Source: Daucus carota subsp. sativus (taxonomy: Eukaryota; Streptophyta; Magnoliopsida; Apiales; Apiaceae). From it: a stretch of DNA of 64,000 nt. The stretch is from contig NC_030388.2 of the NCBI RefSeq assembly GCF_001625215.2, positions 21,874,558 through 21,938,557 on the forward strand, in the 5' to 3' direction. Below, one piece after another: positions 13,238-63,797 of this stretch. The position numbers were made by a program, and so were the translations under genes. Numbering within the stretch: position 1 is the stretch's first letter; each line of letters opens with the position of its first letter. The notes beneath the pieces were generated by a model, which was not told the origin of the DNA, did not search any database, and saw only the letters and a list, made by a program, of their open reading frames with translations.

Positions 13238-13395
13238 GTCGTTATCGGTATTTTTCTACACGTAAGAAAAATCATGGGAGTGCCTACTAATTTCCTTCCA
13301 TTCCGCAGCGAGTCTGAGTCTATCTTCACTGACTTGACTGCACTCAATTCCATATATATATTATGCCCAAGAAACTCCACTAAACATATGAACAA

Positions 13396-15864
13396 ATGGC
13401 TTTATTACACAATCCTCTTGTTCATGCACTCATTTATGTCTTCTTTATCTCCATACTTTCACTTCATACCACATTTTCATCAAAACCTCAAGGAGAGGCT
13501 CTTGTCCAATGGAAGAACACTTTAATACCATTTGATTCACCTGGAGATTATGATATGCTGCATTCTTGGTCCTTAAACAATCTCGAAAGCCTTTGTAACT
13601 GGAAGGGCATTACCTGCAATGCTGGAGGAACCATTCTGAAGCTCAACGTTTCAGGTCTCCATCTCAACGGAACACTTGTTAACCTCAGTTTCAATTCGTT
13701 TCCGAACCTCATTTCCCTGGACATGAGTTCCAACTTCTTTATAGATGTCATACCAGCAGAGATTGGAAGCCTGACACAACTTCAGCACTTGAGCTTTTCC
13801 TTCAACAATCTTAATGGTACCATTCTTTCCCAAATTAGTCATCTTCAGAAGTTGACCTTTCTTGATTTGTCATGGAATAGGTTGACAGGATCCCTGCCTC
13901 AATCGATGTTTACCCATTTAACTAATCTTGAATTCCTCGATCTAAGTCTTAATCATTTCGAAGGGCCATTGCCAGGAAATATTTCAAAGCTTTCCAGGCT
14001 AAAGGAACTTAATTTAGGAAGAAATAATTTCTCAGGGTCTATTCCTGATGAAGTAGGTCTTTTACACCATCTTCAAGTTCTCAGATTGTCTGAGAATTTA
14101 TTTGTAGGTAAAATTCCTTTTTCTATCGGCCAACTTAAGAAGCTTCAAACACTTGATCTCAGAGCAAATTCTCTAACTGGCCCTCTGCCTTCGTCCTTCA
14201 CAAATCTTTCACAGATTTCTGTACTAGACCTATCAGATAATCTTCTGTCCGGTAAGCTCTTGCCTCATTTCTTCAGCAACTGGACTGAGTTAACATATCT
14301 GCGGATGAGAAACAATACATTCACTGGTATTATTCCTTCTGAAATTGGTATGCTCGGAGGACTTCAGATCTTAGACCTGTCAAGAAACTGTTTAGCAGGT
14401 TCAGTTCCAGCAACTATTGGCAACCTCACCAAACTGGATACCTTACGTTTGTTCTTGAACAATCTCACTGGAACTATTCCACATGAAATTGGGAATTTAA
14501 CACAGCTAACACTTCTTTATCTCAACAATAATCAATTGTATGGAAAGGTGCCAGATTCAATTTCTGGTTTAAGTAACTTGTTGTTACTTTACCTTTATGC
14601 CAATAGTTTTACTGGCAGCATTCCGAAGGACCTGGGATTTATCAACACTCCAAACTTGACGTTTGTTGATTTATCAAAGAACAACTTTTCTGGTAAGCTT
14701 TACAAGACATTTATACTTAACTCTTTTCTTCAGAGTAAACTAATAGTATTACACCATATTTTAGCTGAGGCTGAGGCGTGTACATCAAATTCTAGTTTAC
14801 TAATATCTCTATTATACCCTGTTACCAGTGAAGGGAATTTGGAATTTGTCACACTGGTGATCCCTTTATTTTTGTACCTGGTTTGTTTTGACATTTCAAT
14901 CCAAGCTCTTTTATTTTTTGACAGGAGATATTCCTGCAACACTTTGCCAACATACGTCCCTTCGGCTTCTTGATTTGTCAAGGAACAGCTTAAGCGGTGA
15001 ACTTACACACTATATGGAAGATTCTTTCACTGAGAGCTGCCAACTGACAACTTTCAACATGAACAGCAATGACTTCGAAGGGCCGATACCCCTAGCCTTG
15101 GCAAACTGTAAGCAGTTGCAGATTCTTGATCTTGGAAATAACAAAATAAGTGGCACGATTCCATCGTGGCTTGTTACTCTTCCAGAGCTACAAATCTTTG
15201 TCTTACGATCAAACAGACTTCATGGTATGTTGGGTGTGAGAAAAGTGGAGCATCCATTCCCCAAATTGCGCATCATGGATCTCTCTCACAATCAATTTAG
15301 TGGTAACCTGGACATCGAATTTCTCGTTAGTTTCAAAATTTTGGTAAATCCAGATCAAATTCATGATTTGGACATATATCTACCACGATACGGTAATTAC
15401 ATAATACCCAAACAAGCTATACACTACGAAGCATCTGTCCTGTTAACTGTCAAAGGACTAGATGTTAAAGTGAAAAAAATTCTCAAATTGTACACAGTTA
15501 TAGATTTATCAAGCAACATGTTCAGTGGAGAGATTCCAGAGCTCATTGGCGAACTAAAATCACTCCGGCTGCTAAACTTATCACATAACAGCCTTACAGG
15601 CCATATACCGTCTCTGAGAAACATGAGCCTTCTTGAATCTTTAGATTTGTCTTCAAACCAGTTGAGCGGTACAATTTCTTCCCAATTGACTGGTTTGACA
15701 TTTCTATCATCCTTGAACCTCTCGGAAAACCATCTTTCTGGAGCTATTCCACGTGGAAGCCAATTCGACACATTCAGTAATGACTCATTCCGACATAACC
15801 CGGCCCTGTGTGGAGTTCCTCTGACAAAGAAATGCATAGATGACGAGTTGCCAACACAAGAAGT

Positions 15865-15926
<62 letters not shown>

Positions 15927-16093
15927 TGAATTGGTTTGATTGGCAAATGGCCCTAATAGGCTATGGAAGTGGATTGGTATGCGGATTATCCCTGGGATAC
16001 ATTTTTTGCACAACTACAATGGCTTTACAGTGTGTGATATTCATTGAAATAGCTCATCAAAAGTTGGCCCGAAAATACAGTAAGAACTCTTGA
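13396..16093 (+). CDS. LRR receptor-like protein (RLP), no kinase
   Basis: Two exons, 13396-14692 and 14925-16093, encode 821 residues; the 232-base GT-AG intron splits a Gly codon. A hydrophobic signal peptide (about residues 1-28) is followed by an LRRNT cap with the CNWKGITC motif, then a long run of plant-type LRRs (LDLSxNxLxGxIP). A loop with YEASVLLTVKG resembles the island segment of RLPs. The C-terminal cap ends in NPALCGVPL. An acidic tract holds 20 consecutive Asp (residues 747-766), then a membrane span carrying YGSGLVCGLSLGY, and a short basic tail. RLPs sit in the plasma membrane and signal through partner kinases such as SOBIR1 (family knowledge). Ligand unknown. Many RLP genes lack introns, so the intron is a little unusual. 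Confidence 0.93.
15866..15925. repeat. Coding (GAT)20 microsatellite
   Basis: Twenty perfect GAT codons inside the RLP gene, encoding the Asp tract just before the membrane span. Its perfection suggests recent expansion and length variation between alleles (inference). Confidence 0.97.
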
Positions 16094-17539: not shown

Positions 17540-17544
17540 GATTG

Positions 17545-18156
17545 TGATAACTCCTTTTTTCGTCGGGGGTTCCAATGCACTGTTCCGGGAAGCTCAGGTC
17601 GCGACCTAACCTGCAAAACAACGCCGCACGGGGGGGTGTCCCGTGAAGCGCCTCCGGCGTGATAATCAGTGATTGGAATGCTTGACAAGTAGGGTAATCA
17701 GAGAGCCGAAACTCTAAATGTGCGAGGTGTGATATGTGCTTTGTATGCTTTGAAGAGTGAATATTTGTGATAGCCCAGAGAGAGAATATTTAGAGATGAA
17801 TATTCTGTGTGTTGTGAGCATGCTTGATACTAGTGAGGCCCCTCCCTTCATATGTGAAAAGGCCTGTATTTATAGTGTAGTCATGTGGACATTACAGAAC
17901 AAATAGCATGTGCCGTGGTGTAGTGCAAATTTGACCATACCTTGCCACCATACTTTCTGTCATTGAGTTGTTGTACCTGCATGCTACAGTTGAGTCATTT
18001 ATCACTCATGCCAAGTACAGTTGATTTGTCCTTTTACACATGGGTGTGGCGTGTGGTGTTTATCTTTACCTTTATTGCTCCCCTGCTTTATATCTAATTG
18101 TTTACCATATTTTGTCAAGTCTGTAAATTAAATGATAATAATGCATGGTATTATCA
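17545..18156 (-). repeat. LTR (3' LTR in element orientation)
   Basis: 612 bp, identical in length to the LTR at 21735-22346. Reading the two together I see one substitution (GAATATTCTG against GAATATTTTG, near 17808). The minus-strand TATA box is at 17867-17874. Confidence 0.95.
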
Positions 18157-18179
18157 TTGCCCCCCTACTCCTTCCATTT
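18157..18179 (-). promoter_or_regulatory. Polypurine tract of the LTR element
   Basis: On the minus strand a purine-rich stretch ending GGAAGGAGTAGGGGGGCAA directly precedes the TGATAA start of the 3' LTR, the place expected for the plus-strand primer. Confidence 0.75.
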
Positions 18180-18318
18180 GCTTTAGCGGATGGGAGGAGT
18201 AAGTAAAAAAGAAAATCGAGCTGGGACAAGTTTGAAGAAAAATAAGTTGTTTGGGTGCTTTTCATGTGTTGGGTGCGAGCAACACGGAAAAAGAAAATTT
18301 TGTGAATATTTTGATGGT

Positions 18319-18855
18319 TGCCCCCCAGTGTTGGTTGCGGACAACACTCGGGAAAGAGAAGATTTTGCGAAAAAATTGTGCTTGGTTGCCCCCCAGTGTT
18401 GGTTGCGGACAACATTCGGGAAAGAGAAAATTTTTGTGAAAAATTGGTGCTTGGTTGCCCCCCAGTGTTGGGCGCGGACAACACAGAAATAGGAATTTTT
18501 TGTGAAAAAATTGTGCTTGGTTGCCCCCCAGTGTTGGGCGCGGACAACACAGAAATAGGAATTTTTTGTGAAAAAATTGTGCTTGGTTGCCCCCCAGTGT
18601 TGGTTGCGGACAACATTCGGGAAAGAGAAAATTTTTGTGAAAAATTGGTGCTTGGTTGCCCCCCAGTGTTGGGCGCGGACAACACAGAAATAGGAATTTT
18701 TTGTGAAAAAATTGTGCTTGGTTGCCCCCCAGTGTTGGGCGCGGACAACACAGAAATAGGAATTTTTTGTGAAAAAAAATTGTGCTTGGTTGCCCCCCAG
18801 TGTTGGGCGCGGACAACACAGAAATAGGAATTTTTTGTGAAAAAATTGTGCTTGT
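18319..18855. repeat. Tandem array of 8 units (about 66 bp) in the LTR element
   Basis: Each unit holds TTGCCCCCCAGTGTTGG (+ strand), then GCGGACAACA and a T/A-rich spacer. Two subtypes occur: A (TTGGTTGCGGACAACA with TCGGGAAAGAG) and B (TTGGGCGCGGACAACACAG). Their order is A A B B A B B B, so units 2-4 and 5-7 repeat as a three-unit block. Long open frames across the array are a by-product of the repeat. Confidence 0.93.
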
Positions 18856-19340
18856 ATGAATTTTGTCTAAATGTGGGAGAATATTGCACGGATGCACAAG
18901 ACTAAAACATATATATGATGATAAAGCTGGTGTTGGTTGTAGCTAGCAAATACGTATAAAGTGGAGGATCTTGAGAGAGATTTCGGTGACGACATAATGA
19001 GAAGAAATATAAAATAGTAAGTAGTGCAGGATATAGCAGTCCATGAGTGATGGCAGTGTTAGATATGAATGGAGGTAGCGGACATAGGCATATTCTGTTG
19101 AACACACATACATGTGATTGTGAGCTATTGGAATAATTTATTCTGTTTATACAAGCTAGTAACTGAGGTGATGGGCCGGGATGAGGTGGCGGGCCCGGTA
19201 GGGGTCTGGGCTAATAACAGTAACAGATAGGATGGTTGGTGGCATGTGTTGGTGTGTGGTAGCGGGAGGCAGAATTGACACGAGGTGGCGGGAGGCTTTG
19301 ATGGCGGTACAAGAGAGAACATAGGTGAAGGTAGCGGACA

Positions 19341-19343
<3 letters not shown>

Positions 19344-19388
<45 letters not shown>
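19344..19388. repeat. (TA)n microsatellite
   Basis: About 45 bp of alternating AT inside the LTR element; the open frames rich in Tyr-Ile here are artefacts. Confidence 0.95.
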
Positions 19389-19396
<8 letters not shown>

Positions 19397-21044
19397 TTAC
19401 TACTGGTTGTGGTAGGTTACAGAGATTGCGGACTGTTGTTGAAGTGAGCTGTTTTGTATATTACTTAGTATGTACCGCTTTTATAATATTCAAGAATAAA
19501 GGTGGCGGGCCTAGTAAGGCTATGTGATGGGCTTGGCTAAGAGGTGACCTAAAAATGATGTTTGAGGAAGGGTGTTGTAGCGGCAGCCTGCAAGCGGCAA
19601 TTTGTGATGAGCTTTGGTAGCGGTACAGGTGATATAACATGCATGGAGCCAGAAGAGTGTGAGTGGGGTAAAACGAAAAAGGAGAGAAAACTGAAAAATA
19701 ATTATTCAGGCTCTGACTTGCAACTCTAGGTGAAGCTTACTGAATAATATAATTTGTGTGCTTCAAGTGGTAGCGGATAACATTTGGGGGGGAAAAATAA
19801 AAATATTTGACAAAAAATTAAATTTGTTGTTGTGCTCCACATTGTGAGAATAGTGATAAATATGCTGGAAATATTTAAAATGATTGTTTTTGCAATAAAA
19901 TTATTATTGGACAGAGTAAATAAATCTGTAAAAATTGCAGGGCTTGATTTAATGCATTAAATGTGCAGTAATATTTTCTCCAAATGAGCATAATATTTTT
20001 TGTACATTAACACTAAGAAACATGTGTCACAGCAACCCCTTACAAAAAGGGTAATTTGCAAAATTTCAGAAAATGCGAAACTGAATTTGTTTTTGCTTTT
20101 TTTTTTTTTTTTGCCTTCGATAGAAATTTGTAAATAAAAGTGTGAGTTAATAAATGCAATGTGCAATTTTTTGTATTAAAATGTGGAAATGTTTGGCAAA
20201 CAAACAAAATTGTGATAAATATGCAAATATGCACTTAAAATTTTTGTGTAACGGAGCATTAACAATAGTGCATCTTAGAATAAAAAATAAATATGTTGCG
20301 TCATGTGCTTTAAGGAATGAAGCTGTAATAATTTTTTTTTTACAAATAAATTGAGTGATATGAATATTTTGCTTCAACAAATATTTTTATGAGATAAAAA
20401 ATAATTGTTGAGAGAAAATAAAGTGAAATAAATAGAGCTGGAGGGTTGCAGTAAAAAATATATAGTATTGTAACACTGAACAAGAGTTTATGTGTCCGCG
20501 TTAAATATATATGAGATAGGTTGACAACAAGAATGCATTATGTGGTGCTTAACCTTGGGTAGACGCAAAAAGAATTGGAAGGTAGCGGGCAAGTGGAGGT
20601 AGCGGGCAATATTAGTATACAGGAGGGGTGATGCTAGTTGGCAACAATTTTAACAATAACACTGACAGGGCATATCAAGACATATAAGTGATAAAGTGTG
20701 AAGCATGTTAATGAATAATAATGTGGATACATGTACTGTGATATTGGAAGCATAAAAAGTAAATGTAATCATGATAGATTGGTGAGCTGGCAGGATAATT
20801 GTGAATATAAAAATATATTGAAAAAGAAAGAACCTGTGCCTCCCAAATATATAATATTTGTATGTAGTGGTTTAGTTGTGTCCGTGGGAGAGATGAGCTT
20901 GGTCCGCCATCATGCTTCTTATTAAATAAGAGTAATTTGTTGTGAGGACCCATAAGGTTGATATTCTTGCTTCATTGAATGTGGATGCTTCTAATTGCTG
21001 CAATAAAGGCGGACCAAAATTTGTAAAAATAGTTGTACTACTTT

Positions 21045-21345
21045 TTTGCTTGCTTTTGTGATGTGTGCATGATGCTTTTGTTGCTTGCTTTTGTGAGATG
21101 CATGATGCTTTTGTTGCTTGCTTTTGTGAGATGCATGATGCTTTTTGTTGCTTGCTTTTGTGAGATGCATGATGCTTTTTGTTGCTTGCTTTTGTGAGAT
21201 GCATGATGCTTTTTGTTGCTTGGTTTTGTAAGATGCGTGATGCTTTTTGTTGCTTGCTTTTGTGAGATAGATGCATGATGCTTTTTGCTTGTTTTGTGAT
21301 ATGTGCATGATGCTTTTGTGTTTGCTTTTATGAGATGTGTGTTGC
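21045..21345. repeat. Tandem array of about 34-bp units in the LTR element
   Basis: About eight or nine units of the form TTGCTTGCTTTTGTGAGATG plus CATGATGCTTTT, drifting at both ends. It lies in the 5' half of the element as transcribed. Lys/Ser/Gln-rich open frames on the minus strand are repeat-driven and not accepted as genes. Confidence 0.9.
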
Positions 21346-21714
21346 TTTGTTGCTTGGTCACGGGACACGGTTGTGTGTTTCCTTGTTGCTTGGTTGCGGG
21401 ACCTAGTTGTGTGTTGCATGTTGCTTGACTTCAGAGACATATATATGTTGCTTTTTTGTCCGCTTTTGAGAGATATTAGCATGTTGTTTATTTGCTTGGT
21501 TTGGCTTGGTGGTCCACTTGAAGAGTTGTATGTTGTCCCACTACAAAAGTGGTGTGATGCTCTATTTGAAAAATGGCATGGTGCTCCACTTTAAAAGTAG
21601 CATAGTGTCCATCTAGTGAAAATGAGATAACTCGATGTACCGCTTCCACTTGGAGTAGATTGTAATTTTTTGTGACCCTGCAGAGGTGATGAAGGTTTTT
21701 CTTAATGAAAAACG

Positions 21715-21732
21715 CCCCTTCCTGGCGCGCCA
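21715..21732 (-). promoter_or_regulatory. Primer-binding site of the LTR element
   Basis: Minus strand TGGCGCGCCAGGAAGGGG, starting with the TGG expected against a tRNA CCA end and two bases inside the 5' LTR. The exact tRNA is not proven here. Confidence 0.65.
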
Positions 21733-21734
21733 AA

Positions 21735-22346
21735 TGATAACTCCTTTTTTCGTCGGGGGTTCCAATGCACTGTTCCGGGAAGCTCAGGTCGCGACCTAAC
21801 CTGCAAAACAACGCCGCACGGGGGGGTGTCCCGTGAAGCGCCTCCGGCGTGATAATCAGTGATTGGAATGCTTGACAAGTAGGGTAATCAGAGAGCCGAA
21901 ACTCTAAATGTGCGAGGTGTGATATGTGCTTTGTATGCTTTGAAGAGTGAATATTTGTGATAGCCCAGAGAGAGAATATTTAGAGATGAATATTTTGTGT
22001 GTTGTGAGCATGCTTGATACTAGTGAGGCCCCTCCCTTCATATGTGAAAAGGCCTGTATTTATAGTGTAGTCATGTGGACATTACAGAACAAATAGCATG
22101 TGCCGTGGTGTAGTGCAAATTTGACCATACCTTGCCACCATACTTTCTGTCATTGAGTTGTTGTACCTGCATGCTACAGTTGAGTCATTTATCACTCATG
22201 CCAAGTACAGTTGATTTGTCCTTTTACACATGGGTGTGGCGTGTGGTGTTTATCTTTACCTTTATTGCTCCCCTGCTTTATATCTAATTGTTTACCATAT
22301 TTTGTCAAGTCTGTAAATTAAATGATAATAATGCATGGTATTATCA
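21735..22346 (-). repeat. LTR (5' LTR in element orientation) with TATA box
   Basis: 612 bp, TGATAA...TTATCA. The minus-strand TATAAATA box at 22057-22064 would drive transcription leftward into the element. Confidence 0.95.
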
Positions 22347-22740
22347 GATTGATATAAAGAAATGCAGATATTAATCTGTTGGCCAACGTAAGTTAGTAAC
22401 CTCTGCCTCTTCGGTAATAACAAACAACTGTACTCTACTAATATTCACACAAGATTCTCCAGTCTGCAACAGCTTAATCCAAACCATAAAATCCAGATTC
22501 ATGAACAGCGGAAAATGACTTATATAAGTTTTTCTTTTGCAGGACATTGTATCGGTACTCAGGACAGAGAGTTTGATCGTTTGGTGTGATTAATGTCGCG
22601 GTTGCTTCTTGATTGATTCGATCTTAGCATTTTGAAATCACAAAATAAAACTATTTCTGAAAACACAGAATTTATTATTTCCTCACGCATATAGTACAAA
22701 TAATATATAATGAAGATACAATTTCTAGCTAACTAGAATT

Positions 22741-23832
22741 TTACTTGATTATGTCTCCTAGATATAACAATATTTGCTCCATGGAAGGCCTGGCGTCCGG
22801 GGAATTATTTGTACATGCCAGAGCGATATCCAGAACCTTCAGGGCTTGCTTTCTGGCTTTCCCTGTTGTCGGAAACTCAAAAAACTGGCATTTGCCATTC
22901 TTGATTTCTTCTTTCTTCTCTATGATCTCATTTTTTGACTCGCTTGATGTATGCCCTGCTAGCAAGTCCAACAGGATAATCCCAAAGTTGTAAATGTCAC
23001 ATTTCTGGGAGAAAGAGTCAATGTATAACCTCGGCTGTGAATCCAGAGGAGGCTTCACTTGACAGATGTCGGAAACTTTTACTCTTTCAGCTAGTTGGAC
23101 AAAGCCATAATCCGAAATGCTGGCATCAAAATCACAATTGATCATGACATTGGAGGACTTGATGTTACCATGGACATTTAAGATCAAGTGCTTCTCTTGG
23201 GATGGAGATTGTCCGTGTATGAAAGCAATGGCTCGTGCCATGTGAAAAACGATCTTAAGGCGTTGCTTCCAATCTAGAGCAGTGTGACCTAGTTCTCTGG
23301 CACCTGAACATTAAGTACAACATCATATGAGATTTAATGATAAGTACTTTCCGAACAACCCTAGAAATTATAGTTTATGTGATTACTTACCAGCAAGCAG
23401 ATCCGCGAGGCTTCCCATAGGAAAGTAATGAGAAACAACAAACTTGATTCTCCTCGTGTAAAGATAGGAAGTGACAGGCACCAAATACTTACACTGCTTG
23501 CTAATCTCTGCTAGCCGCTGAATTCTTCTCCCGAACTCAATTCTCTTGACACTAACTTCCCTGAACCTCTTAAGAGAACAGACTTGACCTCCAAGCAGCA
23601 CTACTTTCTCAATCATGCCTAGACGGCTCTGTCCAACAACTCCAACCGAACCCCTCAACACCTCTCTGAGGGTCAAGTGGATTGCACCAGGGACATCATT
23701 GCAATTCTTGAGTGGGGGATCATCCATGAAACCAATAATGCAGTCCTCGTACTCATGGATCGAGGCTGATCTGCAGCTGGTTTCGCCATACCTAAAGCTC
23801 TTTCGAGGGGTTGTGAAGGCTCTCGAGAGCAT
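22741..23832 (-). CDS. Receptor-like cytoplasmic pseudokinase (LRR-III RLK-like)
   Basis: Two exons, complement(23391-23832, 22741-23303), encode 334 residues; the 87-base intron splits a Gly codon in phase. The protein is a kinase domain alone, with no signal peptide, LRRs or membrane span. The glycine loop is degenerate (GSVGVVGQSRLG), the beta-3 Lys is kept (CSLKRF, Lys88), the catalytic loop reads HGNIKSSN (residues 192-199; Asp of HRD replaced by Asn), and DFG is SDYGF (212-215). Later subdomains are present (QKCDIYNFGIILLDLLAG, ARPSMEQI). The sequence resembles the kinase part of LRR-III receptor kinases, many of which are catalytically dead. It probably acts as a scaffold or regulator; partner unknown. 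Confidence 0.88.
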
Positions 23833-23849
23833 TTTCTTTAGGTGATGGA

Positions 23850-25895
23850 CGTATGAAGGTAGCGAGGGGTGGAGTATATGTTGGCTACCATCTGGTCATT
23901 CATTGGTCTGATTCTCCAGAGACCTAGTTCTCATCGAAAAATAATATATGGTGGGGGAACAAAATTGATAAAAACAATGATCCCAGAAGATCCAAAATTT
24001 GGGTCTTTTAAATTACTTATAATTGTTTTGATCCTGTCAGATAATATTCACTGCATCATCACATCCTGATATGCAGATATGCAGAATATCTTTTCAAGGT
24101 GAAATGTGTACATTTCAAGAAAATCAGGACCTCTGATCAAAAAATCTAGAAGTAAATGATGCTTGTTTTTAGACTCACTTGTGTAATCTACATAATTGAG
24201 ACAGTAAAAAGTCTGAGATATTTCCAACTTGAACATATGAAGGAACTTTATTACGTCCTTACCCCTCCAGAAGCTTACAAATTTAGCATATGTTGACATG
24301 TTGTCTTCAAGTCTTTGACAACTGGTTCAAACCAAAGATAAATTCTGAGGCCATGCCTGATCAGACATTAGAAAAGTTCACGTTAGCTTAACGAGCTACT
24401 CTATAATAAATGACCACGCACTGGCAGCGGCGGAGCTAGGTTTTCAAGTTAGGGTCCCGGATTAAAACAATCCGGAACCCCACTATCCGGATCCAGTGCG
24501 GGACTGACTACGTGTCAGCATTATTCATTCTCAGCCTTCTCGACTCTGGATATCACAAAAGATCGCCGTTGTTAGTTTGTCACAAGTCAGATTAGTTGCA
24601 TGCCGAGTAACAACAGTTCTTAAGATGTGCATGAACATATCACTTCTCAACCGGCTTCATTTAGGTGCACAAAAATATGTCACTCCCTCGGTCTCAATTT
24701 ATAGGTCGCTTTCAGAAAAAAAAAATTGTCCCAAAATACTTGTCTCTCTCTTCTTTCAATACAAATTTATCTATATATTAATTGTGATTTTTTTGAAACT
24801 CAACATTATTCTCATTTCTCAATGCACTAAATCTCTATATTTATTGTGATTTTTTTGAAACTCGACTATATTCTCACTTATCAATGCACTAATTAATGAT
24901 ATATGAGATAAGATTCTATCTAACCAACTTTTTTCCTAATATGCGTGTTTATTCCAAAATGGACCTATAAATTGAAACGAAAGGAGTACTATTTTATTAC
25001 TACAATTGCTATAGAAAAGGCATAACCCATTTATAATAATCTCAGTTTGCATCCACGAGAACAAAGGTGGAATAATGACACCCCGAATTCCACTGACCTT
25101 GTACTTTTCATTTCTGAATCCAACTGCTTCTCGTACATACTCGGAATGTTCCAATTTAGTAAATTGTATCCTCATTGGTTCCCGAGGACTTCTAATTTCC
25201 ACTCAAATAAGCAACACACTCTCCACTTTCCAAGACCACTGAGAAAAGCAAAAGACATAACTTTACAATTTCTAAGCATTCACAAACAAGTGGACAGACG
25301 TACAGATAAATTGGAGAAGCTTTAATATATGCTCATCAAAAAATGATCACGAGCCGAGAAAGAGTGGATCAAGTAGAGAAGCTTTAATATGCGATTTAGT
25401 CTAGCATGATATACTTACTGTTCGACATCACTCATTTGTATTCAGCAAGACAACATGATATTGCTAGTGTCTAGTTTTCAAAAGAAATGAACTGGTAAGC
25501 TCATCAGTTGTATGCTAAGATCAGCACCACAACCATAAGCAATAATGACGAAACACTTGTGATTTAAAAAAAGGTTTTATACAACACGTGTTAACAACAA
25601 AATCGAACACATAATCGTCAAATTTTCTCAAGCATAGATATTTACAACACAAGTCCGGTCCAGTGTCTAGTGAATAAAACAAACATAGAGATTTGTTTAC
25701 AAAGTGGAAGCAGAATGACACCTAATAATGAGCCAGTAAACAGTTTGCTGACGCAACAATTTAATACCATCTCCAGATAATTGAAGCATTGAACCACATT
25801 TGTACTTCCAAATATCAAAGAGAGCTTCCTTACATAGTTCAGACAGAACATCATTTACCCAAAACGACTGGAACTTCTAATCAGAACCTCAAACA
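23850..25895. other. Intergenic stretch between pseudokinase and ABA receptor genes
   Basis: Contains GCGGCGGAGCTAGG (24427-24440), a phrase common at plant hAT-type ends, but no partner end was found, and a Stowaway-like MITE (24683-24986). The part next to 25902 is probably the 3' UTR of the PYL gene. No other gene seen. Confidence 0.45.
24683..24986. mobile_element. Stowaway-like MITE
   Basis: Left end CTCCCTCGGTCTCAATTTAT and right end ATAAATTGAAACGAAAGGAG are inverted repeats. A TA follows the right end; the left neighbour has CA. Confidence 0.75.
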
Positions 25896-49763: not shown

Positions 49764-50010
49764 TGTTATAAATAGTGATTGACATGTGGTCAATGTTCTA
49801 ATAGTTGAGCTATGGCATATACATGAAGAATTACTGCATTGCATTTATTACTTGTTACTTTTCCTTTGCTATAAATAGGATACAAGCTGAATGAAGAAAA
49901 TGCACCGAGCATTACAAATCCATCAGCTCTTGAATTCTCTCTGCTATCTTTCTGCTCTATTTATTATTATAGCATCAGCTCTCTAATATAGAAGCTAGTA
50001 TATTACAACA
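49764..50010 (+). repeat. Copia 5' LTR with TATA box
   Basis: 247 bp. TATAAATA at 49870-49877 is the likely promoter of the element. Confidence 0.95.
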
Positions 50011-50097
50011 CGTTATCAGCACGAAGCCCTGCCGGAACTGAGAAGGTATAATTTTATTTAAATGTACACACAGATATATATATATATATATATATAA

Positions 50098-50245
50098 GTA
50101 GACGTGGTTATACCCTCTACAATTAATTTAAATATATGTGACCGGAGTAGACGTGGTTATACCCTCTACTAATAAATTTATATATATAACTGGAGTAGAC
50201 GTGGTTACACCCTCTACAAATATTTTAACTACATATGGCCGGAGC
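50098..50245 (+). repeat. Three tandem repeats in the copia leader
   Basis: GTAGACGTGGTTATACCCTC occurs at about 50098, 50147 and 50195 (the last with ACACCC), each followed by an AT spacer and CCGGAG or CTGGAG, giving units of roughly 50 bp. They lie in the untranslated leader between the 5' LTR and gag. Confidence 0.85.
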
Positions 50246-50598
50246 ACCGCCTATTTACGGTACCATATAATTTTGGGTAATACCGAAATATAGTGGGAAC
50301 CTTGATTTATAAATTGCCTGCTTATCGGATAATAATTCTTTTGTGCCTAACTAACTTATGCAGGATTTATCACTTAAATATATTATTGGTTGGAGATAAC
50401 CTGTATACGCAGACGTCCGTATGGCGGGTGAAAATCCATTTGTCATTTTATATATAGATCTGTTCATAATATCGATGATAATAATGATATACACATTCAT
50501 TATTGCTTACTTGTTAACGCATCCGATTCAGTAGGATTTTATGTAATATTTACATTGATAATTTAAGTTAATAATTTTGGTGTTAAATTCAGATTATA

Positions 50599-51603
50599 AT
50601 GACAAATCTTACAAACTTGTCGTTCGTTGCATTGGACATTTCTGGGGAGAATTATTTATCGTGGGTACAAGATGTAAAGTTGCATTTGGGTTCAAAGAAA
50701 TTAAGCGACACAATAAAAGCAGCAAACACATCCACGATCGAAGAAAACTTTACCTCTATTATTTTCCTCCGACACCACATGCATGAAGATTTAAAATCTG
50801 AGTACCTAGAAGTTGAGGATCCCTTTATTTTATGGGAAAATCTAAAGGATAGGTTCGATCATCAGAAACTAGTTTATCTACCAGCGGCTGAAAATGATTG
50901 GGCTAATCTAAGACTTCAGGATTTTAAGAGTGTTCGGGCATATAGCTCTGCCCTATTCAAAATAAGTTCTAGGCTCATTATGTGTGGTGAGGTTGTTACT
51001 GAGAAAAGAAAGATCGACAAAACACTATCTACTTTTCATCCCAATAATATCAACTTAGCCGAGATGTACAGGGAGCGGAAGTTTACCAAATTTGGGGATC
51101 TCCTTTCAACCCTCCTTGTTGCCGAGCAGAATCATGAATTGGTGATTAAGAATCATCAATCCCGTCCAACGGGATCTGCCCCTTTACCAGAAGTAAATAA
51201 CACGACATTCCAGCAGAATGTACGTGGAAAAGGGCATAGAGGTGGACGAGGCCATGGTCGTTACCGTGGACGAGGCCGTGGTCGTGGGCATTTTCGTCCT
51301 TATAATAGCTCTAGTCACCAGAAGTGGCAACCTGAAACACATAGCAAAAGAAAGGCACCACAAGGAGGGAAAACTGACAATTTATGTCACAAGTGTGGAA
51401 TGGAAGGGCATTGGTCACGTAATTGTTATATCCCACAACATCTTGTTGATTTATATCAGTCATCTAAAAGATCAAAAGGAAAAATGGTGGAAACCAATTT
51501 CGCCAACAACTTAGATGATTCCCTTATAATATCAACTGGGGGAATAAGTGTTAATGGTCCTAATGAGTCTAACGAAACTCCCATGTGGGAGGCTGAGGAT
51601 TAG
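50599..51603 (+). CDS. gag: Copia Gag polyprotein
   Basis: 334 residues, starting at an ATG about 590 bp after the 5' LTR. The N-terminal two thirds is a UBN2-type Gag domain (FVALDISGENYLSWVQDV, ILWENLKDRF). An Arg/Gly-rich stretch follows, then one zinc knuckle, CHKCGMEGHWSRNC (residues 263-276, C-X2-C-X4-H-X4-C), for RNA binding. It forms the virus-like particle in the cytoplasm (family knowledge). It ends in TAG; Pol follows in another frame, 38 bp further if counted from the first Pol ATG. Confidence 0.93.
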   Translation: MTNLTNLSFVALDISGENYLSWVQDVKLHLGSKKLSDTIKAANTSTIEENFTSIIFLRHHMHEDLKSEYLEVEDPFILWENLKDRFDHQKLVYLPAAENDWANLRLQDFKSVRAYSSALFKISSRLIMCGEVVTEKRKIDKTLSTFHPNNINLAEMYRERKFTKFGDLLSTLLVAEQNHELVIKNHQSRPTGSAPLPEVNNTTFQQNVRGKGHRGGRGHGRYRGRGRGRGHFRPYNSSSHQKWQPETHSKRKAPQGGKTDNLCHKCGMEGHWSRNCYIPQHLVDLYQSSKRSKGKMVETNFANNLDDSLIISTGGISVNGPNESNETPMWEAED

Positions 51604-51641
51604 TTTCATAAAATTATTAGCAACTGGAGGAATGAGCATTA

Positions 51642-54600
51642 ATGGTCCGAATTACTATAGTTACTAGTGTGTACTGTGTGCTTTATTTGAACTATGTAAT
51701 GTGTTATATGTTCTTATTAAATAAATTATGTTTCTTAATTATATACAGAATGGATTCCGAAGATATATGCATTGCTGATTGTGGTACAACTCATACGATT
51801 CTACAGAATCGAAAATACTTTAGCCATATAACCAAAACCGAAGCTCAAGTTGGAACGATATCTGGCGTATCTAATATAATCGAAGGTTTTGGAAAAGCTA
51901 GTTTCGTCTTACCTAATGGTACACACATACATATTCCAAATGCATTATTTTCTAGTAGGTCCACTAGAAATCTCCTTAGTTTTAAGGATATCAGATTTAA
52001 CAATTTTCACATCGAAACCACTTCTGAGGATGGTAAAGAATATCTTCTTATTACTTCTGCTAATTCTAGCAACAAGAAAATCTTAGAAAAATTTCACTCA
52101 CTTTCTTCAGGATTATATATGATGAAAATCAGAACCATTGAGTCACACAATGTCATTGCTTCCAAACTCATAGATCCAAAATCATTTACCCTTTGGCATG
52201 AAAGGTTAGGTCATCCGGGAGTCTCTATGATGCGTCGTATTATAGAGAATTCTACTGGACATCCACTTAGAGATCTTAAAGTTCTTTCTAAAAATGACCT
52301 TCCATGTTCAGCATGTTCTTTAGGAAAACTTATTACCCAGCCATCTCCTACTAAAGTTAAGCTTGAAAGTCCAAGTTTTCTAGAAAGGATCCAGGGCGAC
52401 ATATGTGGACCGATCCACCCATCATCTGGTCCATTTAGGTACTTCATGGTACTAATAGATGCCTCAACTAGATGGTCTCATGTTTGTCTTCTCTCAACTC
52501 GTAATGATGCTTTTGCAAAATTACTTGCCCAGATAATCAAGTTGCGAGCTCAATTCCCAGACCATTGTATTAAGTCAATTCGTTTAGATAATGCCGGCGA
52601 GTTTACATCTGCAACCTTTGTCGACTATTGCATGTCTATAGGAATTTCAGTTGAGCACCCAGTTCCTCATGTACATACACAAAATGGGTTAGCCGAGTCC
52701 TTTATCAAAAGACTTCAACTTATTGCAAGACCATTGTTATTGAAAGCCAAATTACCTACATCTATTTGGGGTCATGCAATACTTCATGCTGCTAATCTTA
52801 TTAGGATTAGACCAACTGCCTATAATCAACATTCTCCACTACAGTTGGTACTTGGTCAAATCCCTAATATTTCTCACTTCAAAATCTTCGGAAGTGCTGT
52901 ATATGTACCGATTGCTCCACCACAGAGATCGAAGATGGGAGCTCAAAGAAGAATAGGTATTTATGTTGGTTTTGATTCAACATCTATAATTAGATATCTT
53001 GAACCACTAACTGGAGACTTATTTACTGCACGATACGCAGATTGTCATTTTGACGAATCTTTGTTTCCTCCCTTAGGGGGAGATAAACATGTGAATAAGA
53101 TTAATCCTGACATAACATGGAATGCATCGGGGTTACATTTTCTAGATCCACGTACCGGTCAATGCGAAATTGAAGTTAAAAGAATCATCCATATGCAAAA
53201 TATCGCAAACCAAATGCCTGACGCATTTAACGATTCTAGAAATGTAATAAAATCTCATATACCTGCAGTAAATACTCCAGCTAGAGTAGATATACCAATT
53301 CAAAAATCAAGTACAAATGAATTGGTTACAGATTCAAAGCCACGCCTGAAGCGTGGTAGACCGGTCGGTGCAAAAGATGTTGCACCAAGAAAAAGAAAGA
53401 CAAAGAAAATTGCCCCTGAAGTGGCACATGCTCCAGAAGAAGCAAATACCCCTGAAGTGGTATTATCTCCTGAAGAGATTCCCGTCCCTGAAGATTCGGG
53501 ATTAAACAATCATGAAATTTCAATAAATTATGTGCATGATATGAAATTATGGGATCGAAGTAAAGCCATAATCGATGATGTATTTGTGTATTCAGCGGCA
53601 TTGGATGTCGACATAAATTCTGATCCTGAACCACAAAGTGTGGATGAATGCCGTCGAAGAAAAGACTGGCTAAAATGGAAAGACGCAATTCAAACAGAAT
53701 TAAATTCATTGCGCAAAAGAGAAGTATTTGGACCTGTTGTCCAAACACCAATCGGTGTGAACCCTGTTGGAAATAAATGGGTATTCATAAGAAAAAGAAA
53801 TGAAAAGAATGAAATTGTGAGATATAAAGCCCGACTTGTTGCACAAGGGTTTTCTCAAAGGCCTGGCATTGATTATAATGAGACATACTCGCCAGTAATG
53901 GATGGAATTACTTTTCGTTTTATATTAGGTATGGCATCGAAAGAAAAATTGGAAACACGTCTTATGGACGTTGTTACTGCATACCTATATGGATCACTTG
54001 ATAGTGATATTTTTATGAAAATCCCAGAAGGATTAAAAATGGATGAGTTCAAGAAACCTCGTCATATATACTCCATTAAACTTCAACGATCATTGTATGG
54101 ATTGAAACAATCTGGTCGTATGTGGTATAACAGACTTAGTCGTTATTTACAAAAGAATGGGTATATTAGTAATCAAATCTGTCCATGTGTTTTTATCAAA
54201 AAATCACAATTTGGCTTTGTGATTATTGCTGTATATGTGGATGATTTAAATCTTGTAGGAACAACTACAGAGGTTGATGAAGCTGTCATATATCTAAAGA
54301 CAGAGTTTGAAATGAAAGATCTTGGGAAGACAAAGTATTGTCTTGGTATACAAGTCGAGCACTTGTCATCAGGAATTTTCCTCCATCAATCTACATATAC
54401 AGAAAAGGTCTTGAACAGATTTTACATGGATAAATCTCATCCGTTGACTACTCCAATGGTGGTAAGATCTTTAGAACCAGATAAAGATCCATTTCGACCA
54501 CAAGAAGATGATGAAGAGGTTCTTGGTCCTGAAATCCCATATCTTGGAGCAATTGGTGCACTTATGTATCTTGCGAATAATACAAGGCCGGATATTGCCT

Positions 54601-55253
54601 TTGCTGTGAATTTATTGGCTAGATTTAGCTCTGCTCCGATGGCCAGACATTGGAATGGGATCAAGCATATATTTCGTTATCTTCGTGGAACAATTGATTT
54701 CGGGTTATTCTTTCCGGAAAATTCGACATCTCAGTTGATTGGATATGCAGACGCTGGATATCTGTCAGATCCTCATTTTGGCAAATCACAAACTGGATAT
54801 GTATTCACATATTGCGGTACGGCCATTTCCTGGAAATCCACAAAGCAAACTACAGTGGCGACCTCAACAAATCACTCAGAACTAATTGCAATTCACGAAG
54901 CCAGTAGAGAATGTGTTTGGTTGCGATCTATTATCAAGAATATTCAAGAATCGTGTGGATTATCGGACATCACGAGAAGTCCTACTATTATGTTTGAGGA
55001 TAACACTGCATGCATTGATCAACTCAAAGAGGGATATATCAAAGGAGACAGGACGAAGCACATTTCACCAAAATTCTTTTATACTCATGAGCTTCAAAAG
55101 AATGGTGAAATTGATGTACAACAAATTCAATCATGTGACAACCTTGCAGACTTATTCACAAAATCGTTACCGAATTCAACATTTGCAAAGCTGCGACGTA
55201 ACATTGGAATGCGTCGACTCAAGGATTTGTTGCAGCAAAACTTCAGTGATTGA
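51642..55253 (+). CDS. pol: Copia Pol polyprotein (protease, integrase, RT, RNase H)
   Basis: Up to 1203 residues from the ATG at 51642; a second ATG at 51750 (residue 37) begins right before the protease and is as likely. In order: protease with ADCGTTHTIL, pre-integrase zinc region (LWHERLGHPG), integrase core with Asp (GDICGP), Asp (RLDNAGEF) and Glu (GLAESF), RVT_2 reverse transcriptase (NKWVFIRKRNEKNEIVRYKA, with YVDD), and RNase H ending in the ADLFTKSLP motif. No stop or frameshift is visible. Being out of frame with Gag, it would need a frameshift, reinitiation or splicing to be made. Confidence 0.95.
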   Translation: MVRITIVTSVYCVLYLNYVMCYMFLLNKLCFLIIYRMDSEDICIADCGTTHTILQNRKYFSHITKTEAQVGTISGVSNIIEGFGKASFVLPNGTHIHIPNALFSSRSTRNLLSFKDIRFNNFHIETTSEDGKEYLLITSANSSNKKILEKFHSLSSGLYMMKIRTIESHNVIASKLIDPKSFTLWHERLGHPGVSMMRRIIENSTGHPLRDLKVLSKNDLPCSACSLGKLITQPSPTKVKLESPSFLERIQGDICGPIHPSSGPFRYFMVLIDASTRWSHVCLLSTRNDAFAKLLAQIIKLRAQFPDHCIKSIRLDNAGEFTSATFVDYCMSIGISVEHPVPHVHTQNGLAESFIKRLQLIARPLLLKAKLPTSIWGHAILHAANLIRIRPTAYNQHSPLQLVLGQIPNISHFKIFGSAVYVPIAPPQRSKMGAQRRIGIYVGFDSTSIIRYLEPLTGDLFTARYADCHFDESLFPPLGGDKHVNKINPDITWNASGLHFLDPRTGQCEIEVKRIIHMQNIANQMPDAFNDSRNVIKSHIPAVNTPARVDIPIQKSSTNELVTDSKPRLKRGRPVGAKDVAPRKRKTKKIAPEVAHAPEEANTPEVVLSPEEIPVPEDSGLNNHEISINYVHDMKLWDRSKAIIDDVFVYSAALDVDINSDPEPQSVDECRRRKDWLKWKDAIQTELNSLRKREVFGPVVQTPIGVNPVGNKWVFIRKRNEKNEIVRYKARLVAQGFSQRPGIDYNETYSPVMDGITFRFILGMASKEKLETRLMDVVTAYLYGSLDSDIFMKIPEGLKMDEFKKPRHIYSIKLQRSLYGLKQSGRMWYNRLSRYLQKNGYISNQICPCVFIKKSQFGFVIIAVYVDDLNLVGTTTEVDEAVIYLKTEFEMKDLGKTKYCLGIQVEHLSSGIFLHQSTYTEKVLNRFYMDKSHPLTTPMVVRSLEPDKDPFRPQEDDEEVLGPEIPYLGAIGALMYLANNTRPDIAFAVNLLARFSSAPMARHWNGIKHIFRYLRGTIDFGLFFPENSTSQLIGYADAGYLSDPHFGKSQTGYVFTYCGTAISWKSTKQTTVATSTNHSELIAIHEASRECVWLRSIIKNIQESCGLSDITRSPTIMFEDNTACIDQLKEGYIKGDRTKHISPKFFYTHELQKNGEIDVQQIQSCDNLADLFTKSLPNSTFAKLRRNIGMRRLKDLLQQNFSD

Positions 55254-55380
55254 TGTTTTCATCCAAGGGGAGATTGTACTCTTTTTCCTTCGTTAAAGTT
55301 TTTATCCCACTGGGTTTTTCTTTGACAAGGTTTTAATGAGGCAATCTATGATCCACACCACCATGACAATCAAAGGGGAG

Positions 55381-55627
55381 TGTTATAAATAGTGATTGAC
55401 ATGTGGTCAATGTTCTAATAGTTGAGCTATGACATAGACATGAAGAATTACTGCATTGCATTTATTACTTGTTACTTTTCCTTTGCTATAAATAGGATAC
55501 AAGCTGAATGAAGAAAATGCACCGAGCATTACAAATCCATCAGCTCTTGAATTCTCTCTGCTATCTTTCTGCTCTATTTATTATTATAGCATCAGCTCTC
55601 TAATATAGAAGCTAGTATATTACAACA
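55381..55627 (+). repeat. Copia 3' LTR
   Basis: 247 bp, two visible differences from the 5' LTR. Directly preceded by AAAGGGGAG. Confidence 0.95.
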
Positions 55628-63037: not shown

Positions 63038-63797
63038 GAGCATCTCCAAAAGACTCTTTATTTAGCCTCCTAACTTGAGATTTGAGGAGGAAGAGCAAAA
63101 ATATTGCTCCAAGAGACTCTTAAGTGACTCTTAAATCTTAAGAGTCTCTTGTTTCTCTCTCCTCTCTCCTCAAAGTTAAGAGTCACCACATGACTCCTAA
63201 CTTATTTTTTTACAATAAAAAAATCTTTCCCTCCAATTCATCTTCATCTTTCACTCTCTTTTGTTGTAGCGGAACCCAATATATGAATAAAATATTAAAT
63301 AGAGAAGATATGTAGAGAGTATTTTTGGAGTTTACACTCTTAACTTTGTTCTAAATTGTTAAGAGCCACATTTTTTATATTAGAGCAAGTCCAAGAGAAG
63401 CCCTATAACTTGTCTTAAGTTATAATTTAAGGCACTTGATGAAAAATGTTGATCCAAGAGTGTCCTAGTGATGCCTTATATCACTAGGACAATCTCTTCA
63501 AGCCCTATTAATAGGGCACCTCTCTCCTTGCCCTATCCAATATTTTAATATAAAATTTTATATCCACCCTCTTTCTCTCTCTACTTTATATTGTGTTTTA
63601 ATGATGAAAGGAAGACTTTAATAATAAAATATTAAACATATATTGAAAATAAAGCACATTGTTGGAGTTGAACTTACATAACCATGTCCTAAATCACTAG
63701 GACACCATATTTTATATTATATTTGGGGCTCTAACTAGGACATTGTTGGACTTGCTCTTATATTTAGGAGTAAACAAGGAGTCTCTTGGAGATGCTC
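63038..63797. mobile_element. Harbinger-type MITE, family E, split by a nested insertion
   Basis: Starts GAGCATCTCCAAAAGACTC and ends GTCTCTTGGAGATGCTC, with TTA duplications at 63035-63037 and 63798-63800. The family B element at 63383-63757 is inserted inside, so the original was about 382 bp. Confidence 0.85.
63383..63757. mobile_element. Harbinger-type MITE, family B copy 2, nested (375 bp)
   Basis: Same ends and length as the copy at 2479-2853, with TTA at 63380-63382 and 63758-63760. Very few differences from copy 1 are visible (for example CCAAAAGTG against CCAAGAGTG, and CATCATATT against CACCATATT). Confidence 0.88.

Follow-up and report, generated by a model that had tools for sequence, protein, structure and literature searches.

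A young, coding-free LTR retrotransposon of carrot with mosaic LTRs, a probable Retand-dependent recombinant

Introduction

How can a long terminal repeat (LTR) retrotransposon without coding domains have inserted recently, and where in the genome should its parent be sought? The question is raised by a 64,000-nucleotide stretch of the carrot genome (Daucus carota subsp. sativus, NC_030388.2, positions 21,874,558 to 21,938,557; hereafter the window), which contains at 17545-22346 a complete 4802-bp LTR retrotransposon lying on the minus strand, hereafter the focal element. A first-pass annotation, made from the letters of the window, had described a very recent insertion that must be moved by the proteins of another family, and had expected the parent to survive in the genome. 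The analysis reported here suggests, with a probability of about 85%, that the focal element is a non-autonomous recombinant resembling large retrotransposon derivatives (LARDs), dependent on elements of the Retand lineage and made by template switching between two RNAs. The insertion is young, lacks coding domains, shares its signals with a coding Retand family, and has a mosaic LTR and 3′ end.

A young insertion without coding domains

The focal element has the hallmarks of an LTR retrotransposon, including direct LTRs of the form TG...CA, a target-site duplication, a primer-binding site and a polypurine tract. Read on the minus strand it runs from TGATAA to TTATCA, with TTTGGCGCGCCAGGAAGGGGC directly downstream of the 5′ LTR, AAGGAGTAGGGGGGCAA directly upstream of the 3′ LTR and the TATA box TATAAATA at LTR position 283. 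The minus-strand orientation that the first-pass annotation had assigned from primer site, polypurine tract and TATA box is borne out, as is the perfect 5-bp duplication GATTG on the two flanks. Alignment of the two 612-bp LTRs confirmed a sole difference, 17805 (C) against 21995 (T), which at 1.3e-8 substitutions per site per year corresponds to an age of 0.063 million years (My; Poisson 95% interval 0.002-0.35 My for one change in 612 bp), and at 7e-9 to 0.117 My (0.003-0.65). The earlier figure of under about 0.1 My holds as a point estimate at the faster rate, and fails as an upper bound, the interval reaching 0.35 My.

The base at 21995 is also present in the five aligned copies that cover this stretch (L015, L018, L019, L020 and L036), and the single substitution therefore most likely sits in the left LTR. 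Deamination of a methylated C was considered as its source and rejected, since the relatives carry T on the plus strand, making T to C in the left LTR the more likely change. LTR pairs with at most one difference occur in 6 of the 11 copies compared (focal element 1, L015 0, L016 0, L018 0, L019 1 and L020 0), and the two LTRs are 99.35% identical in L017, 97.8% in L013/L014, 94.2% in L032, 93.9% in L011/L012 and 91.7% in L033 (partial LTR). Perfect 5-bp duplications flank 6/9 copies tested, L016 has four of five bases by eye, and L032 has none.

A Pfam search of the 47 stop-to-stop frames of at least 40 aa on both strands of 18157-21734 identified no gag, pol or other retroelement domain, in agreement with the first-pass annotation; the reverse transcriptase, RNase H, additional RNase H and integrase of Retand type and the antisense Transposase_28 frame were likewise not found in these frames. 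At E<=1, 22 families were matched by one frame each, the best at 0.0018 (GMC_oxred_C_1st). ARAGORN found no tRNA genes in the window, and Rfam gave no matches there at the gathering score. Being without coding domains, the focal element therefore has no phylogenetic placement as a Retand member. Its coding-free interior of 3578 bp is kept in two other copies, at 95% and 94% identity over 1551 bp, which together with its length of 4802 bp is consistent with a LARD, the length being too great for a terminal-repeat retrotransposon in miniature (TRIM). These findings support the earlier proposal that a young, coding-free element of this kind would need to be mobilised in trans.

A mosaic LTR and 3′ end

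The assembly searched comprises 11 contigs with 441,086,747 bases in total. A query of the LTR with 44 adjoining bp gave 43 matches among the best 40 of 208 candidates, and the top other whole match was 82% identical. The central interior, for which all 16 candidates were scored, retrieved copies at 95, 94 and 90% identity followed by weaker ones, and the leader (best 40 of 55 candidates) retrieved copies at 99, 98, 98 and 96%, again followed by weaker ones. The focal element thus appears to be one member of a small non-autonomous family in this genome, with the closest interiors apparently far nearer to it than the LTRs are. The best whole-LTR identity is low, although the element's own LTRs are 99.8% alike, because the LTR and the 3′ end are recombinant, drawn from at least two lineages.

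The mosaic was analysed in an alignment of 12 LTRs, with donors chosen as the best of the 11 other LTRs. Over ungapped columns of the whole LTR, L014 (C2:19.85 Mb) is 86.5% identical to the focal element. LTR positions 1-290 match L014 at 284/290 (97.9%), and L015 and L036 at 172/249. By contrast, positions 326-612 match L036 at 284/287 (99.0%) and L015 at 281/287 (97.9%), but L014 at 191/251 (76.1%). In an order test on the 148 sites informative between L014 and L015, the observed value was reached in 0/100,000 permutations, with the main break at about 280-306, at the TATA box. Eight control triples were run in which one donor was a sister copy; here the observed value was reached by 10000, 10000, 32, 10000, 1258, 41, 245 and 3535 of 10,000 permutations, none of the eight being at zero and two lying below 0.005. 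Among the ten strongest donor pairs for the focal LTR, L014 is the second donor in nine and the first donor in the tenth.

The LTRs of L018, L019 and L020 are of L015 type up to position 363 and of L014/L032 type from 400, with a few reverting sites (0/100,000 permutations for L018). All four U3 x U5 combinations of two types each thus appear to be present, in the focal element, L014, L015 and L018. As in LTR swapping, the nearest relative shifts along the element, both LTRs are alike, and the breaks lie in R as placed from the TATA box. No paired change on both sides of a U5 hairpin was found in 17 LTRs (11 distinct rows), and no such hairpin is claimed.

The change of nearest relative extends into the interior. 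Its last 320 bp are 98.4% identical to L014 and 83.8% to L015, and among nine rows one gap is common only to the focal element and L014. Over ungapped columns of the central 2.1 kb, by contrast, identity is 98.79% to L015 and 97.62% to L017; the focal element agrees with L015 only at 37 sites and with L017 only at 12 (nine of them at positions 304-381 of that stretch), while 14 sites are private. The nearest interior, that of L015 (98.8% over 2140 aligned bases), nevertheless appears more diverged than the true template of so young an insertion should be. Between these two parts lies a 66-69-bp tandem array, in which seven units were compared: units 1, 2, 4 and 5 are L015/L017-like (0-2 edits, against 10-12 to L014), and units 3, 6 and 7 are L014-like (0-1 edits, against 11 to the others). 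Three units, 201 bp in all, recur as a block at 99% identity, so that one switch and one duplication would be enough to produce the array pattern.

A coding Retand family as the likely helper

A coding element that shares the signals of the focal element is located at C9:38,441,365-38,458,847 (LTRs L046 and L045). Its LTR pair differs by three substitutions in 499 bp, its target-site duplication is ACAAC, and its primer site is identical to TTTGGCGCGCCAGGAAGGGGC. It contains a 1794-aa frame with gag, reverse transcriptase, RNase H, additional RNase H (RVT_3) and integrase, an antisense Transposase_28 frame, and a tandem array of 52 copies of a 68-bp repeat. According to the available part of PMC6317226, an additional RNase H between RNase H and integrase marks Ogre and Retand, and in excerpts of this paper and of PMC11963269 Transposase_28 and the antisense frame point to Retand; the antisense frame is given there for 97% of recently active clusters (PMC11963269) and for 23% of Retand elements (PMC6317226). 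The C9 family is therefore likely a Retand-lineage (Ty3/gypsy, Tat) element and the helper of the focal element.

Blastn matches between the focal element and this helper comprise only U5 (184 nt, 85%) and short stretches at the primer site (42 nt) and the polypurine tract (52 nt); an identical primer site, a like polypurine tract and a related U5 are thus common to the focal element and a coding Retand family, consistent with dependence on Retand. LTRs of helper type with a similar U5 gave matches at 79-88% apart from the query's own locus (best 40 of 144 candidates). Among 26 matches to the 5′ end, drawn from the 49 rows of the leader search, 16 are paired with 3′ LTR matches at 12-27 kb, 14 of these at 12-17 kb, the C9:38.4-Mb copy being the only one of the 16 whose sequence was read. 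In the sister copy L017, the last 192 nt of the LTR are 96.9% identical to the helper LTR (break at 468-482; 0/100,000 permutations), and at the joint a short stretch is present in both parental versions, one directly after the other. The L017 U5 is best read as a putative switch between helper RNA and dependant RNA in one particle.

The shared primer site is the exact 18-nt complement of the genome's tRNA-Arg-CCU with CCA added. Of 11 pattern matches in the genome, seven are tRNA-Arg(cct) genes according to ARAGORN, six of them ending in the exact complement, while the other four are not tRNAs and resemble the primer sites of other elements. Pattern scans of viral contigs gave 0, 2 and 0 matches. 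A primer site one mismatch away from a plant tRNA-Arg with a different 3′ end was considered and rejected, as that end occurs in only 1/7 of the tRNA-Arg(cct) genes.

The surviving parent expected by the first-pass annotation, for which it had proposed a genome search, was thus recovered in part: there is a coding relative with the same primer site, polypurine tract and part of the LTR, but no single parental copy was found, the best other whole LTR among the best 40 of 208 candidates being the 82% match given above. A 16-kb and a 17.6-kb locus (approximate lengths), each bounded by family LTRs, were considered as coding parents and rejected, because their gag-pol elements are nested and have LTR pairs of their own. 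One is an Athila-like element (1269-bp LTRs, 99.8%) in the coding-free copy L013/L014 at C2:19.84-19.85 Mb, and the other a chromodomain gypsy element (295-bp LTRs, 99.7%) in the coding-free copy L011/L012 at C7:25.94-25.95 Mb.

Array units of both the focal family and the Retand helper contain a hairpin followed by a G-run and CA. In the focal array, GTGTTGTCCGCGCCCAACACTGGGGGGCA is present in 5/8 contexts, and two of the remaining contexts begin ATGTTG, which spoils the first pair; in the helper, TATTGGCCGCGTCCAATACTTGGGGGGCA is present in most of the array contexts listed. The stem letters differ between the families on both sides (GTGTTG/CAACAC in the focal family, TATTGG/CCAATA in the helper), a two-sided change that hints at a kept structure in a comparison of two families only, with the register chosen by the analyst. 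It is conceivable, if doubtful, that the six-pair hairpin units, with their CCGC-type loop and polypurine-tract-like G-run and CA, are a shared working part of the partnership kept by selection, for example as extra plus-strand starts or as a preferred template-switch site.

Proposed origin and alternatives

In the proposed origin, the focal element would keep only the signals required for a Retand helper (tRNA-Arg-CCU primer site, polypurine tract and helper-type U5), and we infer packaging in Retand particles, strand transfer, template switching and integration by the helper. The RNA of the element would be packaged in a Retand particle alongside another RNA of divergent sequence. The strong-stop DNA made on RNA 1 (R-U5 of L015/L036 type) would be transferred, in R or at its border, to the 3′ end of RNA 2 (L014 type), which would supply U3, the polypurine tract and the last array units. 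Synthesis would then move to an L015-type (RNA 1-like) template inside the 66-bp array, and the helper integrase would insert the recombinant product. Since both LTRs receive a copy of R-U5 and a copy of U3, the chimeric LTR would be present twice and alike, with the target-site duplication intact. The L017-like stretches may derive from earlier rounds or from further lineages.

Several observations weigh against this account. The donors are near (97.9-99.0%) and not identical, so that this assembly did not yield the true templates. A resemblance to L017 is seen at LTR positions 291-325 and in a patch of the interior, and within the L014-like part four sites at LTR 107-119 look L015-like, suggesting repeated rounds or at least three lineages. 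When the 110 ordered donor pairs were tested on the focal LTR, 42 gave 0/2000, and the order test thus shows a mosaic but leaves the exact donors unnamed; the other donor is indicated by the segment identities. The interior and U3 of the helper have no blastn match to the focal element at E 0.01, and the focal family is therefore not a simple recent deletion of the C9 helper. Transcription, particle packaging and transposition are predicted from the sequence of one assembly.

Of the alternative explanations, one concerns the source of the proteins. Two sister copies contain gag-pol elements of other lineages, which could point to a family other than Retand, but these Athila-like and chromodomain elements are nested insertions with their own LTR pairs (1269 and 295 bp) rather than partners. 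The primer site, polypurine tract, U5 and array design of the focal family match Retand, the one coding family compared, and L017 carries a Retand U5, which makes another protein source unlikely. The others concern the origin of the mosaics. Ectopic recombination seems to happen in the family, as in a tandem LTR-interior array of 7.66-kb period at C2:19.91-19.93 Mb, and the mosaics could in principle reflect gene conversion or unequal recombination between chromosomal copies after insertion. Such exchange usually alters one LTR, whereas each young copy carries the same mosaic in both (pairs 99.35-100% identical in seven copies); it would usually break the target-site duplication, which is perfect in six of nine copies; and the LTR breaks lie at or near R as placed from the TATA box. 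We regard this origin as distinctly improbable. Least credible is a single clonal lineage in which the LTR differences represent ordinary fast evolution of U3, generally the least conserved part of the LTR: the focal U3 is 97.9% identical to L014 while LTR 326-612 is 76.1% identical, the reverse holds for L015 and L036, and rate differences are unable to swap the nearest relatives along a sequence.

Further features of the element and the window

The coordinates of the features are collected in Table 1, and template switching in a Retand particle remains the preferred reading of their mosaic. The sense strand of the interior contains 12.5% G and 25.2% C, with a skew of 0.334, whereas 104 overlapping windows outside, taken on the plus strand, range from -0.139 to 0.157. 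The motif CCGCYACC, picked post hoc from the inspected sequence, occurs 10 times at 19081-20605, on the sense strand only and outside the arrays, against a mean of 0.041 and a maximum of 3 in 1000 dinucleotide shuffles. It also occurs 10 times in the interiors of L015 and L017, and 4-6 times in L016, L018, L019 and L020.

Table 1. Features of the focal element and their positions in the window
Feature	Position	Strand	Remark
Left target-site duplication GATTG	17540..17544		
Right target-site duplication GATTG	22347..22351		
5′ LTR, 612 bp	21735..22346	-	
3′ LTR, 612 bp	17545..18156	-	one difference from 5′ LTR
Primer-binding site TGGCGCGCCAGGAAGGGG	21715..21732	-	exact complement of the 18-nt 3′ end of tRNA-Arg-CCU with CCA added
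Polypurine tract AAGGAGTAGGGGGGCAA	18157..18173	-	
LTR module 1 (U3 through TATA box end, LTR 1-290)	22057..22346; 17867-18156 in 3′ LTR	-	
Switch zone (LTR 291-325)	22022..22056; 17832-17866	-	nearest L017, 32/35
LTR module 2 (remaining R and U5, LTR 326-612)	21735..22021; 17545-17831	-	
34-bp tandem array, about 9 copies, behind leader	21041..21356	-	
Central interior without coding sequence	18855..21036	-	98.8% to L015, L017-like patch; G-poor sense strand
66-69-bp tandem array	18266..18854	-	mixed L015/L017-type and L014-type units; hairpin then TGGGGGGCAA per unit
Interior 3′ end	18157..18476	-	98.4% to L014, 83.8% to L015

Elsewhere in the genome, the tandem LTR-interior array of the focal family (L034/L035, C2:19.911-19.928 Mb) repeats at 99.8% identity and also contains a 468-bp repeat pair. 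In the window, the insertion sits between a leucine-rich-repeat receptor-like gene (13384-16090), in which 20.7 copies of a TGA-unit repeat are read as an Asp run near the gene end, and a kinase-like gene (22744-23895), the frame of which ends about 0.4 kb from the insertion. A complete-looking copia element (49764-55627) has 247-bp LTRs that are 99.2% identical and two frames, one of 338 aa and one of 1205 aa that contains integrase and RVT_2 domains. The two copies of a 382-bp direct repeat, 98.7% identical and 61 kb apart, lie at 2475-2856 and 63379-63760.

Relation to known systems

Published precedents exist for LTR swapping by coding and non-coding partners, for recombination in R and for non-autonomous Retand elements. 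The focal family itself was not found described in a search of open-licence papers, and a 12-letter string of the primer site led to no retrotransposon paper by title. LARDs exceed 4 kb, and the first described had LTRs of several kb. The focal element resembles them in its length of more than 4 kb, its intact LTRs and signals and its lack of coding domains, whereas its LTRs are of 612 bp. In soybean, an autonomous-nonautonomous partnership with LTR swapping was reportedly described by Du et al. in 2010, going by the title, and would likewise involve LTR exchange between a non-autonomous element and its autonomous partner; compared with what that title conveys, the carrot case can be followed at the level of single modules (U3, R-U5 and array units), and four U3 x U5 combinations are seen.

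LARDs are a named class in the available part of PMC10741241, where TRIM elements measure about 250-1500 bp. For ONSEN in Arabidopsis, excerpts of PMC5668417 describe experimentally induced insertions that are mostly recombinant, with parents nearly always pairwise, and LTR recombination products that mostly fit a first template switch in R. The focal LTR likewise fits a first switch in R, but ONSEN, as described there, is a laboratory burst of one family, whereas the carrot case involves a coding-free family and a presumed gypsy helper, read from one assembly. In Triticeae, chimeric LTRs were proposed to arise by a switch between the R regions of co-packaged RNAs (PMC1950507, in part), as would apply to the focal element; the Triticeae case concerns complex fused elements, by contrast with insertions of normal structure in the focal family. 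The C9 helper resembles the Retand lineage, as portrayed in the available parts of PMC11963269 and PMC6317226, in its additional RNase H, its antisense Transposase_28 frame and its tandem repeats between pol and the 3′ LTR, whereas the focal element has no coding parts and shows terminal similarity only.

In this carrot assembly, helper, dependant and partial donors are visible together, and recombination during reverse transcription can be read module by module. Looking for a single parent on the basis of whole-LTR identity overlooks relatives with 95-99% identical interiors, and grouping copies by the similarity of their LTRs would break up one recombining family. The unit design common to the arrays of helper and dependant suggests a testable idea on why such arrays may recur in the Retand lineage.

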